The position numbers were made by a program, and so were the translations under genes. Positions 3,327 to 30,843 of a DNA stretch of 64,000 bases are shown piece after piece; positions within the stretch are counted from its first letter, which is position 1, and the number at the start of each line of letters is the position of its first letter. Source of the stretch: Nitrospira sp. GTDB lineage: Bacteria; Nitrospirota; Nitrospiria; Nitrospirales; Nitrospiraceae. The stretch is taken from assembly GCA_018242725.1 (NCBI GenBank), contig JAFEBI010000022.1, positions 62,001 to 126,000 on the forward strand, in the 5' to 3' direction. A model generated the notes under the pieces. It saw only the letters and a program-made list of their open reading frames with translations. It searched no databases and was not told where the DNA came from.

Positions 3327-4712
3327 TTATGTGGAAGACCCCAGCTCTTTGGACCAAAAAAGAACTAGACCATGACCACCTCGTGACGGCCCATCCCCCG
3401 AATCACGAAAAATTCCGAAGTTGTACGTATAATTTATCTCAATCTGGGACTTCCATGGGGCTCCGGAAACAAACCCGACACCGACAGTAGGCATGGAGTC
3501 CGTCACCTGTCTGATCGTCCGTTGAGAGGTAAAATGCGCCTGCTCAATGAATGCCCATCCTGCTTCGACATAAGGATAGAGGAAAAATAATGCTTCGTAG
3601 CGGTACTGCACATTCGCGATTGCATACCGGCTTGGAACAAGCTCATTAAAAGCAACACCGTGAATCATAGGAAGTGAGACGGCCTCCCATTCATAGCCCG
3701 TCGGACGCCCAGGAAGACGAAACGCGCTGAAGCGGTCCAGATCTTTTCCAATGCCTCCATGTAGACTTGAAATCAGCCGATGCTTCTCACTTTTAAAAAA
3801 TGGCAGACCCGCAGCCGCCAGAATATACCCACTCATCGCTAAGTACGTCTGTTCCCTCCTAACATCTGGCGTTTCGAGCGGTGGACCTCCCCATGGGACC
3901 CACTTTGCTCGGTGTCCATAGAAGAAGTCTCCCCCAATGGTCACGCCCTTGTGGGGCAACTCCATGAGATTGCGATTCAAAGAATCCGTCCGAAGTCTCA
4001 CATGAACTCGACCTTCATAGGTGTCACTGGGGACACCGTATTGCGGCGAGGTATGATTGGTGCCCCGAAACCAGCGATACCCAGGTTCATACGTCACAAA
4101 CAGATTGACTGCGCTGTCCTGGAGGAAGGGATGAACAGGCAGTCGGTAACCAACACCGATCCCTCCAAACACATAATTCCATTCCAATTCCGTTTCCCGG
4201 ATACGCTGTCCCTCGACATACTCCGATCGTCCTAGTGGCGCAATGAAGCTGTTCAAAGAAAATAGGAGCGTCCAATTGGGATAATCTCGAAGACCGATGG
4301 AATATGCGAGATCGTTTACGGCAACGGAAATGGTCCCGCGGAAACGTCGGTTATCATCATCCCAATTCCGCCAGATATATAACGCCCCAAAGGGAAGCAC
4401 CTCGACCTGAGAAGGTCCATCCGGAATCCACTGTACCCCGAAACTAGCTGCTGTGACGGATCGTCGGTCGCGAGAGGCGACATGGATTTCCTCTCCAAAC
4501 AGTTTGGTGCGAAAGTCTTTTCCAGCAAGCGGTGTAGGCTCTTCCGTGGGACTGGTATCTTCCGCAGAGACATCAGCGAGAGTGTCTCCCGGATTGCCAT
4601 ATGAGACGACCAATAGAACAAGAGATGTGGAAAATAATCGGCTTAATTTAAGACTGCTAACCAAGGCATACACGTTGGGGCTACTATCCTTTCCATGAAC
4701 GGCAACTCGCAC
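3327..4712 (-). CDS. outer-membrane beta-barrel protein
   Basis: A 461-residue exported protein from a GTG start. A hydrophobic export signal (about 22-46) precedes a Thr/Pro/Glu-rich linker. The rest is alternating beta strands rich in aromatic and polar residues, with repeated Tyr/Trp-Gly turns. The C-terminus is strand-rich (GGHGLVLFWSKELGSST), though not the classical terminal Phe. The architecture fits a barrel of roughly sixteen strands. I see no periplasmic accessory domain and cannot name a substrate. No operon partner is evident. Confidence 0.7.
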   Translation of the reverse strand: MRVAVHGKDSSPNVYALVSSLKLSRLFSTSLVLLVVSYGNPGDTLADVSAEDTSPTEEPTPLAGKDFRTKLFGEEIHVASRDRRSVTAASFGVQWIPDGPSQVEVLPFGALYIWRNWDDDNRRFRGTISVAVNDLAYSIGLRDYPNWTLLFSLNSFIAPLGRSEYVEGQRIRETELEWNYVFGGIGVGYRLPVHPFLQDSAVNLFVTYEPGYRWFRGTNHTSPQYGVPSDTYEGRVHVRLRTDSLNRNLMELPHKGVTIGGDFFYGHRAKWVPWGGPPLETPDVRREQTYLAMSGYILAAAGLPFFKSEKHRLISSLHGGIGKDLDRFSAFRLPGRPTGYEWEAVSLPMIHGVAFNELVPSRYAIANVQYRYEALFFLYPYVEAGWAFIEQAHFTSQRTIRQVTDSMPTVGVGFVSGAPWKSQIEINYTYNFGIFRDSGDGPSRGGHGLVLFWSKELGSST

Positions 4713-4821: not shown

Positions 4822-5198
4822 CTATTTCTTTTTTTCCATGTTCGTTTTTTCAGCGTCGGATTGTGAAAGGGGTCGTATAGACAGAAGATGCTGTTGGTCA
4901 TTAGCCTGGGCTTCGATCATATCTCCCTGCCTGATTTGCCCGACCACCTTCGTTGCATCGTCTCGATGCAACCGGACCTCCCCTTCTTTTGCTTTAATGA
5001 CGATCTCTTTCCCATCAATATGCAGCACCTTTCCTCTGTACCGACCTTCTTTGAAACCGGTTTGATCCGTCGCAGAGAACGTTTTCATATTGTCTGATGG
5101 AGATGGAGAGTTCTGCGCTTCAGCGCCCCCCCGACGCCAAATAGTGCGACAACAAGCGACAGATAGCACATCCATGCGGTAATCTGACGACCGTTCAT
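4822..5198 (-). CDS. small exported protein, reading frame broken at a G7 tract
   Basis: The ATG at 5198 is preceded by a strong GGAGGAGG ribosome-binding site (5203-5212). It opens a signal peptide (MNGRQITAWMCYLSLVVALF) but runs into a stop after 37 codons. The mature domain (about 80 residues, GRYRGKVLHIDGKEIVIKAK and onward) lies in another frame. Adding one G to the seven-G run (plus-strand C7 at 5126-5132) fuses the two into a coherent precursor with an AEAQ cleavage region. The mature part is an OB-like small beta domain with a Lys-rich tail. The break may be phase variation, a real mutation or a homopolymer error. Confidence 0.6.
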
Positions 5199-5285
5199 GA
5201 CAATCCTCCTCCGTTAGGCGTTTGAACGTTCCAGCTATTTCTCCTCACTCGGTCATAGCGAAGACCGTGAACCATGAACTCGTGC

Positions 5286-5471
5286 TTATTCACACGCTAT
5301 AGCTTGTCGAAATCGGCAACTATCGCACTCGAATATTAACGAGGCTTGATGGCTAATCGCTCCGACTCGAAAAACAAGATGGTATCGTTGCCCAGCACAG
5401 ACGAGGCAGATATAGCTCGCCGCTTCTCCCTCGACATCCTCGGTCGGTATGTCGCATTGGTTTCGTATCAT
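5286..5471 (-). CDS. zinc-ribbon microprotein
   Basis: A 61-residue product whose ATG (5471) follows a clear GGCAGGAGGGATGA ribosome-binding site. Two CxxC knuckles (CLVC near residue 23 and CDSC near residue 50) are separated by about 23 residues, which is the layout of a treble-clef or zinc-ribbon fold. Acidic residues dominate the first 16 positions. Its role is unknown: it could bind nucleic acid or a protein partner. It sits among single-gene units for stress and envelope proteins. A weak copy of the CTAGGG element lies about 75-95 nt upstream. Confidence 0.6.
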   Translation of the reverse strand: MIRNQCDIPTEDVEGEAASYICLVCAGQRYHLVFRVGAISHQASLIFECDSCRFRQAIACE

Positions 5472-5580
5472 TCATCCCTCCTGCCACAATCATGGTGGAC
5501 CAGCGTGATAGATGAAGCACAGCATAACGGAAACACCTCCGGTGCCCCCCTAGACTAAACCCTTGAGCATCGTGCACCAC

Positions 5581-5908
5581 TACCTAGCAATACGACTAGT
5601 TTCGGCTGGAGGATAACGTGGCGTGATCTCGAGATAAGTTCTTGATACCAGAATAATTAACTGTCGTGATATGGGATCAAATGTCAAGACAAGGTAGCAG
5701 GGGTGGCTTGGCTATCCTAAAGTGGTTCGCGTGTTATTGACACAGAACCCGACGCACATGGAAGCGGGAGATGCATTAGTGAGGTCTTAATCCGCTCCGC
5801 CCCTCACCCAGGCGAGGAGCAGAGCAGTGCCGACGTGTAGAACCTGACTAGAAATTGGAACTGCTTCTATTCCAAGAACACATCATCAGGACTGACAATC
5901 GCTGATTC
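5581..5908. other. intergenic stretch with no recognisable gene
   Basis: No open frame here has a plausible start. The sequence is a mosaic without repeats I can match elsewhere in the window. Confidence 0.4.
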
Positions 5909-6307
5909 TTAAATGCTAGGAGGATCTTCTCGATCTTCCCCTGTGAGTACGTTCGATTCCTGAGCTTCCAATGTCTCCATCTCCGTGAGCATGGCAAGTA
6001 ATGCCTGTCGCCTCTGTTGTAAACCAGTCTTTGCCGAATCGGTTGCGAGTGGCTCCTGAGCAGACTCCGGCAAATTGACCAAGGCTTCAGCTTCGCCCAA
6101 GGTTGCATACTTGTATAAGTCTAAATGTTGATGCCCTTCCCCGTACAGACGGGCTAAAACTGATTGTGTTTTGGCATCAAACGCGAGAACGCCCTTCTGA
6201 TCCACATTTCCGTGGTCTTGGGAAGACAGTTGCTCCAAACATTTCAATTGTTCTTTCAAAGCATCACTGCGAGTGAAGGCTGCAAACGAAGCGTTGGTAT
6301 TCGGCAT
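5909..6307 (-). CDS. hypothetical soluble protein, 132 residues
   Basis: The ATG follows a strong GAGGAGG ribosome-binding site (around 6316). The product is soluble, mostly helical and Glu/Gln/Leu-rich, with no signal peptide. Residues 40-75 (VLAFDAKTQSVLARLYGEGH) look like a compact conserved core, and 95-130 form an amphipathic helix ending in an acidic tail. I do not recognise a family. The single-gene layout and neighbours suggest the same stress or envelope regulon as nearby small genes, by context only. Confidence 0.65.
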   Translation of the reverse strand: MPNTNASFAAFTRSDALKEQLKCLEQLSSQDHGNVDQKGVLAFDAKTQSVLARLYGEGHQHLDLYKYATLGEAEALVNLPESAQEPLATDSAKTGLQQRRQALLAMLTEMETLEAQESNVLTGEDREDPPSI

Positions 6308-6355
6308 AATGTAACCTCCTCATACATTAACTACTGTGAACGAATTGGATGAGGT

Positions 6356-6385
6356 ATGAACCGAGATCATATGGCTTCGGTTCAT
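6356..6385. terminator. 9-bp inverted repeat (hairpin)
   Basis: ATGAACCGA at 6356-6364 pairs with TCGGTTCAT at 6377-6385 around a 12-nt loop. It lies downstream of the lipoprotein gene at 6484-6972 and upstream of the 5909-6307 gene, both on the - strand. It could end transcription of the former or act in the leader of the latter. There is no clear U-tract. Confidence 0.3.
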
Positions 6386-6483
6386 GATTGCTCGGTGGAA
6401 GCAGTGCATACATAAAACACCCTCTTTCCGATTCTAGGATGTAAGCTCATTAAGACGTCCCAGTCACATAGTGACAGTCCTCC

Positions 6484-6972
6484 TCATGGCTCTGTATGTG
6501 CCTCAACGGGTGCTAACCACACAACATCAACAAGGCGTGTGAGATCCGAGGCCTTCTGATCGGCCACAAATATGTTGGCGTACTGGCCCTGGAGATTATG
6601 AACAAATTCAGGTTGGTGGTCCATCGGAATCTCCGCAAGCATTGCCAACGAGGAAAGGTACTCGCCGCGGCCTTGCGCAATTTCGTGCTCCACATTGCCG
6701 AAGTTATGGGCAATGAAGGCGTGCACGCGTTGCTTAGCTCGAATTAAATGCTCGTTTCCCACTCGAGTCCCGGGTGTGGTGCTTGAAGTAAACTCCTTAC
6801 TGGGCTGGGTAAATTCTGAGGAGGCCTGTGTTGTGCCATTAGAGACCGCAGTGGTCGCGTCGAATGGGGCTTTCACAAGTTCGACGGTGGCGTCACACCC
6901 AGCAAGCCCGATCAGAAGACAAAGCGTCAATCCTGTGGTTGGAAGACTGAAAAGTATCGATTTCAACATCAA
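6484..6972 (-). CDS. DUF3015-like lipoprotein
   Basis: A 162-residue precursor with a lipoprotein signal: hydrophobic 10-24 and lipobox LAGC with Cys26. A Thr/Ser-rich segment (33-67, with ATTAVSNGTT and FTSSTTPG) follows. The helical C-terminal domain contains GEYLSSLAMLAEIP, the most DUF3015-like stretch. It should be anchored in the outer or inner membrane facing the periplasm. It is separated by only about 36 nt from the LEA-like gene upstream (7009-7293), so the two probably form one transcript. Function is unknown. Confidence 0.7.
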   Translation of the reverse strand: MMLKSILFSLPTTGLTLCLLIGLAGCDATVELVKAPFDATTAVSNGTTQASSEFTQPSKEFTSSTTPGTRVGNEHLIRAKQRVHAFIAHNFGNVEHEIAQGRGEYLSSLAMLAEIPMDHQPEFVHNLQGQYANIFVADQKASDLTRLVDVVWLAPVEAHTEP

Positions 6973-7008
6973 AATCTCCTTATCATTGGCGATAAAGACA
7001 TACTGGTC

Positions 7009-7293
7009 TCAGTCCTTGATTTTTTCTGATAACTCTTTTGCTTTGCCTTTCCCCCGCTCAACGGCACCCTTGGCATTGCCTTTGGCTCTTTCCACACCTG
7101 CCTTCAGATCGTTACCCTTTGCCTCTTCCTTGAGTGCTTTTGCTTCTCCTTTGGTCTCTTCGACGGCTCCTTTCATATCACCTTTGGCCTTTTCCATTTG
7201 AGCCTTGACCTCTCCTGCGCTGCTGCCGGTTGGAAGTCCCACTACGCCTGCCGAAGCCAATGACATTATCCCCAATACTGCACAGATCCACAT
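7009..7293 (-). CDS. exported LEA/CsbD-like coiled protein
   Basis: A 94-residue product. The first about 26 residues form a signal peptide or membrane anchor (VLGIMSLASAGVVGLP). The remainder is a low-complexity Lys/Glu/Gly/Ala helix with repeated KGxxKGAVExxKGxAK units, typical of late-embryogenesis-abundant and CsbD-like desiccation or stress proteins. A GAGGAGG ribosome-binding site precedes the ATG. A CTAGGG-N6-CCAG element lies about 97-116 nt upstream. It probably heads a two-gene unit with the DUF3015-like lipoprotein. Protection of periplasmic components under stress is inferred from the family. Confidence 0.75.
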   Translation of the reverse strand: MWICAVLGIMSLASAGVVGLPTGSSAGEVKAQMEKAKGDMKGAVEETKGEAKALKEEAKGNDLKAGVERAKGNAKGAVERGKGKAKELSEKIKD

Positions 7294-7389
7294 AATGACC
7301 TCCTCGTGGTGAATAGAGCTAAATAGGAATTGAAATACAACAATAATCCATTAGCTATGAATGTCTTTTAGATGAATCCCGGATGTTGT

Positions 7390-7409
7390 GGTCCTGGCTG
7401 AATCCCTAG
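7390..7409 (-). promoter_or_regulatory. CTAGGG-N6-CCAG element
   Basis: Read on the - strand, CTAGGG, six bases (ATTCAG) and CCAGGACC, placed about 97-116 nt upstream of the LEA-like gene at 7009-7293. It is nearly the same as the copy at 16870-16889 and matches the copies at 27045, 7540, 10499 and 29301 in layout. It could be an operator or an alternative-sigma promoter element. I cannot tell which. Confidence 0.5.
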
Positions 7410-7539
7410 CTGAGCATGTCTTATCCCCCGGTGTGACCCCACGGATAAAATTGGGTGAGGTAATGAATCGAGACAGGTGCCCTTATCTGTACAGAATGTT
7501 TCACCATCTCGTACGGTTGTGACCTCATCACACCAAGAA

Positions 7540-7559
7540 CTAGGGCTTTTTCGAGTACT
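7540..7559 (+). promoter_or_regulatory. CTAGGG-N6-CGAG element
   Basis: CTAGGG, CTTTTT, CGAGTACT lies about 120-140 nt upstream of the DUF883-like gene at 7681. It agrees with the copy at 29301-29320 at 17 of 20 positions and with that at 10499-10518 in the GAACTAG and AGTAC blocks. Confidence 0.5.
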
Positions 7560-7680
7560 CACTAGACAGGAATCCGATAGAGTGCGCCTACCGTTGTTGT
7601 GGTTCACGACACGGTGCGTGGAAATGGTCGTGGCAAGACTATCTAGCTGAATATGTTCACTTTTAACTAGGAGGTACGCG

Positions 7681-8031
7681 ATGCAGAGAACGGAATCTCT
7701 TGAAAGAACCGGTGAGCAGCTGACCCGTGAGGGCATGGATTTTATCAACAAGGCAAGCGACAAAACCCGTGAAACCGTGGAATCCGTAGGAGACAAAATC
7801 GCGGGTGCCTCGGAAACTCTTCAGGGTAAGTTGAAAGAAACCGGCAAGGAGGTAGGGGAAGTGGTAACGGCCGTGTCAGATAAGGTTCGATCCTCAGCTC
7901 AGTACCTTGAGGATTCAAGCGTTCAGGAAGTGGTGGAAGACGTGACCAGCCTTATCAAGCGATATCCCATTCATGCCATTCTGATTGGTGCAGGAATCGG
8001 CTTTCTTCTGGCGAGAGGACGCACCCAGTAG
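7681..8031 (+). CDS. DUF883/YqjD-like membrane-anchored protein
   Basis: A 116-residue protein after a strong AGGAGG ribosome-binding site. Residues 1-85 form a long charged amphipathic helix with repeats such as SDKTRETVESVGDKIAGASETLQGKLKETG. Residues 93-112 (YPIHAILIGAGIGFLLARGR) are the C-terminal membrane anchor with the GxGxGxLLxR signature of the YqjD/ElaB family. In enterobacteria those proteins are stationary-phase, ribosome-binding inner-membrane proteins. It is first of three co-directional genes with the same theme. Confidence 0.8.
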   Translation: MQRTESLERTGEQLTREGMDFINKASDKTRETVESVGDKIAGASETLQGKLKETGKEVGEVVTAVSDKVRSSAQYLEDSSVQEVVEDVTSLIKRYPIHAILIGAGIGFLLARGRTQ

Positions 8032-8042
8032 GATCACATGAC

Positions 8043-8498
8043 ATGGCTACTATAAGACGACACAAAACGGACGCTGATCGCGAGATTCAACCCAATCCGA
8101 CGGGTCGGGTCGGCGTGCGTCGTTTGGTTTCCGGAATCATGGACGACCTTAAGAAGCTTGCCTACCAACAAGTCCAGCTGGCCATCCATGAGCTACAGAT
8201 GGAGGCTGACCGCGTGGTAACCATCGTTACCACAGCGGTCGGCGCCGTCATTCTTGTGACACTCTGTGCGACATTCCTGCTCTTGACGGCGGTTGCAGCA
8301 CTACATGAGATGGGCGGCTTCTCGCTTTGGAAGAGCTGTGGAGTAGTGGCTCTCATACTAATGGTCCTGGCCGGAATCCTAGGGTTATACCTTAGACTTC
8401 AAACGCAACGCTTTCGGATTCTTCCCATCCGTTCATTGCATACCGTAAAGGAGGATATCAGATGGATCAAGGAATGGATCGCATCACCAAGGATGTGA
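8043..8498 (+). CDS. YqjE/phage-holin-superfamily-like membrane protein
   Basis: A 151-residue protein 11 nt after the previous gene. A basic N-terminus precedes an amphipathic segment (30-58). Two transmembrane helices follow (about 62-85, VTIVTTAVGAVILVTLCATF; and about 98-120, VVALILMVLAGILGLYLRL). This is the YqjE/DUF1469 layout, and in enterobacteria yqjD, yqjE and yqjK are likewise neighbours. Its C-terminal 36 nt overlap the start of the next gene, which suggests translational coupling. An alternative start at Met29 is possible. Confidence 0.75.
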   Translation: MATIRRHKTDADREIQPNPTGRVGVRRLVSGIMDDLKKLAYQQVQLAIHELQMEADRVVTIVTTAVGAVILVTLCATFLLLTAVAALHEMGGFSLWKSCGVVALILMVLAGILGLYLRLQTQRFRILPIRSLHTVKEDIRWIKEWIASPRM

Positions 8499-9166
8499 AG
8501 GATATCGTTGAAACACGTACGGCCATCGCCGACAAACTCGAAAAGCTCGAGCAGCGGTTTGCGTCCAGCGTGGAGGAGACCAAAATGATAGCGGAGAATC
8601 TTGCTGATCGTACCCAGTCGGTGATCGAAAATACGGTTGACTCCATCAGGAAAGCGACGGATCCATCGCGTGTTGTTTCCCACTACCCTTGGGTGATGGT
8701 CGGCGGGGCGGTCATGGCGGGATTTGCCTTGAGACAGGTGTTTAGAAATAGTAGAAGCGGCGTCATGCCCCATTACCCTCCTGGGTCACGAGGAGCCAAC
8801 ATCATGCCCCAGTCGCCGTCGAACACAGACAGCAAGGAAGGTATATACCCGTTATATCCCCCCCGCTCTAGTGATGATGCTTCACGACCCATGCCTTCAT
8901 CTTCCGCTACGACAGCGTCGTTGTTCACCTATCTTAGTCCTGTCATTGCCGAAGGACTGAGGCAGGTAAAAGGAGACCTGGTAGCGATTGGGACATCTGC
9001 GCTACGCACATGGATAAAAGAAGCGGCGCAGTCCGGAAGAGGGAGCTCCAGAAATTCAGACAGTGTGATAAGTGGTAGCCTGGCTTCACCAACGCCACCG
9101 GAAGGTAGCGACACAAAGGAGCGAGGCAATGAGATGCACGAGACGGAATCACGGAGCCACCGTTAA
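8462..9166 (+). CDS. DUF3618-like membrane protein, C-terminus altered by IS insertion
   Basis: The ATG at 8462 follows GGAGGATATCAG inside the preceding gene. Residues 12-60 are a coiled coil starting with RTAIADKLEKLEQRF, which resembles DUF3618 (R-T-x-I-A-x-K-L). Residues 76-95 (SHYPWVMVGGAVMAGFALRQ) form one membrane helix. A Pro/Ser-rich linker and a second amphipathic segment (143-180, SPVIAEGLRQVKGDLVAIG) follow. The last dozen residues are encoded in the start of an IS3-type transposase remnant, so the native C-terminus has probably been replaced. A C7 run near 8858 stays in frame. Confidence 0.75.
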   Translation: MDQGMDRITKDVKDIVETRTAIADKLEKLEQRFASSVEETKMIAENLADRTQSVIENTVDSIRKATDPSRVVSHYPWVMVGGAVMAGFALRQVFRNSRSGVMPHYPPGSRGANIMPQSPSNTDSKEGIYPLYPPRSSDDASRPMPSSSATTASLFTYLSPVIAEGLRQVKGDLVAIGTSALRTWIKEAAQSGRGSSRNSDSVISGSLASPTPPEGSDTKERGNEMHETESRSHR

Positions 9167-9608
9167 AGCACAGGTGACGTTGGCGGCGGTCAAAGGAGAG
9201 AAGACCCTGGCCGAATTGGCCGAACGATTCCGCATCCACCCCACCCAGGTCATAGAATAGAAACAGCAGTTGCTGGCGGGAGCTGCGGACATATTTGCTG
9301 GGACGAAGCCATCAGCGGAGGCTCCTGATCTCAAGACCATGCACGTGAAGATTGGGCAACTGATCTTGGAGAATGCTTTTTTTAGCAAGCGCGCTCACCA
9401 AGGCCGGCTTGCTGAGCGCAAAGCGATGATCGATCGCACGCATTCCTTGCCGATTGTGCGGCAATGCCAAATCCCGCAGCTGGCTCGCTCGACCGCCTAT
9501 TACCAGCTGACGCCGACCTCCGAAACAACGCTGGCGTTGATGCGGCGGATTGACGAGCTGCATCTGAACTCTCCCGTTGGTCGTCAGCAACCCACCAGGC
9601 ATCACTGA
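9129..9608 (+). pseudogene. decayed IS3-family transposase (OrfA plus start of OrfB)
   Basis: The frame opens with RRNHGATVKAQVTLAAVKGEKTLAELAERFRIHP, an IS3-type OrfA helix-turn-helix. An amber codon at 9258-9260 stands where tryptophan (QVI-x-W-K) is expected. The same frame then continues with KQQLLAGAADIFAG and KIGQLILEN. A frameshift near 9375-9390 follows: ALTKAGLLSAK reads in the next frame from 9391. The OrfB start is then recognisable (MIDRTHSLP to MRRIDELHLNSP) before similarity stops near 9570. Three separate lesions make it a dead copy. It overlaps the 3' end of the gene at 8462-9166. Confidence 0.8.
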
Positions 9609-29354: not shown

Positions 29355-30843
29355 ATGACTAAGTCGCTGTTGGTCGCTCTCGTCCTTACACTTCTCCAGC
29401 CAATGGCGGGCAAGGCTATTGTCCATGCTGCACACGATTCCTCTGAGCCTCAGCCTAGGGAATTAATCGGCCCGGTTCTTCCCCCCCGAAGTGATTCCTA
29501 CCATTCACGCCAGCCAGAAAGATCAGTTCTCTGCTCTCAATTGGGACACCGGTGCCGGTCGGAGTTATCTCATTCCCGCAGGGGAAGTGCTCGCTTACCT
29601 CTTCCTCCTCAATCAATACGACCGGCATTTTAGCCAGCCGACGGCTATTTATCGCACGAACGGGGATACCATCTACCAACATCTCACCGATTCCAAGTGG
29701 GTCCTGGACAACGATCAATTCTCGGTCAACCAGTTTCTACACCCTTACGGAGGCAGCGTGTATTACGGACTTGCCCGTTCGGCCGGTCTCACCTTCTGGG
29801 AATCATTCCTCTATAGCTCGACCGGAAGTTTCCTGTGGGAAATCGGGGGCGAAAAGACCGCTCCCTCGATCAACGATATGATCGCAACCCCCATTGGGGG
29901 CTCATTCTTGGGAGAACCGCTGTTTCGTATGGCAAGTCTGTTACTGGAAACTGACGAAGGGAGACCGGGCTTCTGGCGCGAACTGGGCGCAGCCGTACTC
30001 TCCCCCCCCACGGGGTTTAACCGTCTGGTGTTTGGACACCGTTTTGACGCAGTTTTCCCAAGCCGTCACCCCGCTACGTTTTTGCGACTCCAGGTCGGTG
30101 GTATCGTCTCATCAAGCAGTCATAATGTTCCTTCCGGTCTTCGAGAGCACGGGGCCATCGGCGACATCACCTTCACGTACGGGTTGCCGGGAAAACCAGG
30201 CTATCGTTACGATCGTCCATTTGATTATTTTGACGTTCACGTAACGGCAGTTACCACGAACACCTTGGAAAGTCTCAATACGCGAGGCCTGCTGAAAGGC
30301 ACCGCATTTACGCTGGGAGACGCGACTCGTGGAGCTTGGGGACTCTTCGGCACTTATGACTATATTTCCCCACAAATATTTCGAACCTCGAGCGTCGCGC
30401 TTTCCCTGGGAGCCGTCTGGCAATCCTGGCTGTCACAGTCGATCGCGCTTCAAGGCATAGCCCTTACCGGCATGGGGTATGGGGCGGCCGGCAACATTCA
30501 ACGCAGAGAAGAGCGTGATTATCACTATGGAGTCACCGGACAGGGACTCCTCGCGTTACGATTGATCTTCGGTGACCGCGCCATGATCGACTTCACTGGA
30601 CGGGAATACTATGTCAGCGGGTTAGTTTCGCCCGAACCGCAAGGACAAGAAAACATGTTACGCGGAGAAGGCTCGTTCACCTTCCGAATTATAGGTCCTC
30701 ATGGCGTGGCGCTTCGATATGCCGTCTCGCACCGTGATGCCCACTACCCCAACCTCGCCGTACGCGATCAGACCATCGATACCATTAGCCTCATGTATGT
30801 CTTCCTCGGTAACACCGGGTTTGGAGCCGTGGAGTGGCAATAA
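29355..30843 (+). CDS. DUF3943 exported outer-membrane protein, frame broken at a C7 tract
   Basis: The ATG at 29355 opens a signal peptide (MTKSLLVALVLTLL, ending near AIVHA). After 44 codons the C7 run (29481-29487) changes the frame: removing one C joins it to the 450-residue downstream frame beginning EVIPTIHASQKDQF. The long part shows the DUF3943 pattern (NQYDRHF, WVLDNDQFSVNQFLHPYGGS, YYGLARSAGLTFWES, PSINDMIATPIGG), with barrel-like strands at the C-terminus. It is probably an outer-membrane protein of unknown function. The frameshift may be real, phase variable or a sequencing error. Confidence 0.75.

Follow-up and report, generated by a model that had tools for sequence, protein, structure and literature searches.

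The window (the whole 64,000-nucleotide stretch of Nitrospira sp. DNA analysed in this study) carries on its minus strand, between 5211 and 4822, a small gene whose signal peptide and mature domain lie in different reading frames. A Shine–Dalgarno sequence, GGAGGAGG (5204–5211, approximate coordinates), which is identical in the nearest orthologue, precedes an ATG at 5198. The start codon and signal-peptide segment, MNGRQITAWMCYLSLVVALFGV, occupy 5133–5198, and the signal-peptide-like segment reads MNGRQITAWMCYLSLVVALFGVGG. The frame is broken at a homopolymer of seven G (5126–5132; C7 on the plus strand), where the spacing in the orthologues fits eight bases. As sequenced, the start frame comprises 37 codons (5085–5198) and ends at a TGA (5087–5085), which overlaps an ATG of the mature frame (5088–5086) as ATGA. 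The mature domain (4822–5125), a predicted CusF-like OB fold, is offset by one base from the frame of the signal peptide; it begins AEAQNSPSPSDNMK, has a signal-peptidase-type site (AEA↓QN) at its start and is open to its own stop at 4824–4822. Direct reading confirmed the original prediction that a ribosome-binding site, a start codon and a signal peptide are followed by the loss of one base of frame at G7. Its claim that one added G restores a single 125-residue exported protein was correct in both count and coordinates. Automatic annotation would call a 117-aa ORF (4822–5175), which starts at an internal ATG and has no signal peptide.

The mature domain was predicted to form a five-strand OB fold with a mean pLDDT of 75 and a core near 90, and the best matches among solved structures were the CusF entries 1zeq, 2qcp and 3e6z (E-values from 2e-4 to 8e-4). 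As modelled, the window protein resembles CusF (PF11604), a periplasmic Cu/Ag chaperone, in being a small exported protein with a five-strand periplasmic OB fold. However, the copper-ligand loop of CusF is replaced in the window protein by a short turn, KAKEG-EVRLHRD. The window protein did not match the PF11604 profile, three of the 17 family members matched it weakly (best E-value 0.009), and no Pfam match above the cut-off was obtained for the window protein. The nearest orthologue had a weak similarity to ExtJ (NCBIfam NF040942; E-value 1e-4, 22 bits), which is under the curated cut-off of 52.5 bits. A fair description of the predicted product is a small accessory periplasmic OB-fold protein with a Sec-type signal peptide and an AxA cleavage site. 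Its gene has as neighbours two LuxR-type response regulators, a DUF3015 protein and a holin-X-like membrane protein. A search of the plasmid collection gave no match.

The gene appears to be accessory, because ortholog-level matches were present in only seven of the 79 genus genomes, this genome included. The six other orthologous loci (L002, L003, L036, L037, L038 and L039, from genomes G003, G004, G059, G061, G098 and G100) were compared with the window. All six have an unbroken frame from the start codon through the signal peptide and the cleavage region to the mature domain, and none of the six has a G run at the signal/mature junction. The original prediction had proposed this comparison of orthologues, and as far as can be read from these genomes the frame is split, by a deletion, in this strain alone among the seven; with a fixed deletion, this is the outcome that the prediction had named as its refutation. 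The segment from the initial Met to AQN is 30 aa long in L003, and by hand count the window gene reaches 30 only with eight G. Compared with L037, the nearest orthologue (G100, MAG RBC069), the signal part read in the start frame had a dN of 0.154 and a dS of 0.84 (dN/dS about 0.18), and the mature part read in its own frame had a dN of 0.153 and a dS of 1.15 (dN/dS about 0.13). These low ratios indicate purifying selection on both sides of the break, which argues that until recently both parts still formed a single functional gene and that the break is either recent or false. The G7 tract itself is unremarkable; the part that is not due to chance is the frame break.

We believe, with somewhat better than even confidence, that this is an ordinary, strain-specific null allele of an accessory periplasmic protein, produced by a recent slippage of minus one base. 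Substitutions in this lineage would have created a pure run of eight G at the signal/mature junction, and replication slippage would then have removed one G (G8 to G7). The strong start would now yield only the 37-residue signal-peptide fragment. Weak internal starts, either the ATG at 5175 or the one within the ATGA overlap at 5088, would be the only source of the mature domain; such a product would remain cytoplasmic, so that the allele would be null for export. Three things are inferred here: a genuine base change, slippage as its cause, and tolerance of the loss of the protein owing to the accessory nature of the gene. A null allele would present just this picture, with orthologues that are whole and a disabling indel confined to this lineage. 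Strain-specific frameshift alleles at mononucleotide runs, which arise by slipped-strand mispairing, are alike in the one-base change in a pure G/C run, in the otherwise intact flanks and in the intact run-free relatives, and nothing that we tested differed from them. If the gene is a null allele or contains an error, the matter is mainly one of annotation: in the automatic 117-aa call the signal peptide is missing, and the periplasmic nature of the protein is obscured.

It is rather unlikely, though the most serious alternative, that the true tract is G8, that the exported protein is intact in the cell and that G7 is an isolated miscall of the assembly or consensus. Homopolymers are the usual place of indel errors, both flanks appear to be under purifying selection and are otherwise undamaged, and two of the four G/C tracts of at least seven bases in the window are frame-broken. 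The genome is a 4.0 Mb draft in 34 contigs, and if this draft is metagenomic, a mixture of strains could yield a false consensus. We surveyed 1.24 Mb of it and 1.0 Mb of G100. The surveyed DNA contained orthologues of 213 G100 proteins (71,769 aa). Only one of them, the G7 gene, had a frameshift, and there was no other homopolymer frameshift in the genes surveyed; conserved genes thus had no general excess of such frameshifts. All 26 interior G/C tracts of at least seven bases with a clear coding signal on both sides kept their frame, a test that may miss atypical accessory genes. The difference between these tracts and those of the window (0/26 versus 2/4) gave a Fisher p of 0.014 in a post hoc comparison. 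G9 runs lie inside intact ORFs for FtsZ, RpiA, a carboxylase and an LpxD-like protein, and a G10 run lies within the intact ORF for glucokinase. That runs longer than G7 are correct in such core and essential genes argues both against a general homopolymer error and against strong instability of such runs here. The homopolymer spectrum of 440 kb was neither truncated nor swollen, and this spectrum together with the orthologue survey led us to reject a general long-read homopolymer error. Assembly error, which the original prediction had named as the alternative to switching, was weakened by these internal controls.

The original prediction had suggested that export might be switched by slippage; evolved phase variation, in which slippage of the tract under selection turns export on with eight G and off with seven, we consider improbable. 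The split of a once intact exported protein at a G7 between signal peptide and mature domain was supported; an on/off switch of its export was not. The position of the tract at this junction, the export of the product and the presence here of two more exported proteins whose frames break at G/C tracts close to the corresponding junction all speak for switching. Like the poly-G contingency loci of Campylobacter jejuni and Neisseria meningitidis, the gene has a G run within the frame of an exported protein, where one-base changes switch the frame and the sequenced state is one base from in-frame. Unlike them, its run is short, is kept in none of the six orthologues and belongs to no genome-wide enrichment. 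One study classes tracts of six to eight G as "mutable", changing at 1e-7 to 1e-5 per division, and tracts of more than seven G as hypermutable, and states that C. jejuni lacks mismatch repair (PMC4235727). By this measure the seven G sequenced here fall in the mutable class, and the inferred in-frame length of eight lies at the border of the hypermutable one. MutS is present in this genome as an open 912-codon frame, and the intact G9 runs in FtsZ and RpiA suggest that such tracts are not very unstable here.

Counts of G tracts were close to expectation. The window held five G7 matches, compared with 7.5 expected from dinucleotide shuffles. Under a third-order Markov model, 440 kb of the genome held 16 G/C 7-mers (17.5 expected) and four G/C 8-mers (5.5 expected), which means that there was no excess of long G tracts in these 440 kb. 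The number of G9 runs was within the range of other genomes of the genus. Two longer runs were also observed in this genome, both outside ORFs of at least 80 aa: a G14 run (L126, 2071–2084), which exceeds the Markov expectation by far and has a transposase-like ORF some 220 bases away, and a G12 run (L137, 2063–2074). Phase variation by slipped-strand mispairing has mostly been studied in host-associated bacteria. If switching were true here, it would be a case among the exported proteins of a free-living environmental nitrite oxidiser.

The finding is real but ordinary, and the part that stands out is its recurrence in three exported proteins. The second is a DUF3943 gene on the plus strand (29355–30843), which is split by one base at a C7 (29481–29487); its signal peptide is in frame from 29355, and its 450-aa body ORF lies at 29491–30843. 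In eight other genomes the orthologues have no break at this junction, and the one in G016 appears to be split further downstream. Because the spacing in the closest orthologues fits C6, the C7 would be a change of plus one. The third, a gene for a Kelch-like exported protein (L138 1030–2084), lies on contig C18, where a G9 (G000:C18 3645–3653) breaks the frame between the signal peptide and the Kelch-like body. Homologues in two genomes share 97–98% DNA identity with it over 2.7 kb; in them the 8-base G-rich run is interrupted and the frame is intact, and this contrast between a broken pure run and an intact interrupted one parallels the G7 gene. The ORF beside the Kelch-like gene is partly masked with N. 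All three broken genes have a pure run that is special to this genome.

Three exported proteins broken alike in one genome exceed what we would expect if the pseudogenes were unrelated, but three is a low count and they came to light through a search for tracts. On account of this recurrence, real switching keeps a low probability. The broader proposal, that slippage in the G/C runs at the signal/mature junctions of all three genes (G7, C7 at 29481 and the C18 G9) switches the export of several accessory envelope proteins, likewise seems to us improbable. The idea that G tracts recur at signal/mature junctions throughout the genus was rejected: the tracts of at least nine G retrieved from related genomes (every listed tract of the closed genomes G059, G022 and G024, and one from G061) were in-frame within genes or intergenic, and none was at such a junction. 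The scan for a Shine–Dalgarno sequence plus start returned mostly spurious starts within genes and served for leads only.

Recoding of the seven-G gene by ribosomal −1 frameshifting, transcriptional slippage or ATGA re-initiation, which would give some full or partial protein, is very improbable: a −1 shift would bring the frame back and the stop and internal start do overlap as ATGA, but the frame break is used by no orthologue and hence is not conserved, the downstream RNA structure is not above chance (z −0.08), the ATGA is a simple consequence of the conserved N-M-K codons, which give TGA when read in that frame, and it has no Shine–Dalgarno sequence ahead of it. Programmed frameshifting was rejected in the same way, with no conserved break and no stimulatory RNA fold.

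We return to the null allele as the preferred reading and add some observations on the surrounding DNA. Several small genes of envelope or stress type lie together at 5286–8498 of the window (a CxxC mini-protein, the DUF3015 protein, a YtxH/CsbD-like repeat protein and the holin-X family membrane protein), and this group is partly syntenic in related genomes. The neighbouring gene for a 461-aa protein (3327–4712) has a homologue in G100 (L070 16498–17500, G100:C21) with two frame changes and no long homopolymers. An IS-like element lies at 9038–9608; several similar copies are present in related genomes, and its frame looks interrupted (ORFs 9072–9260 and 9270–9608).
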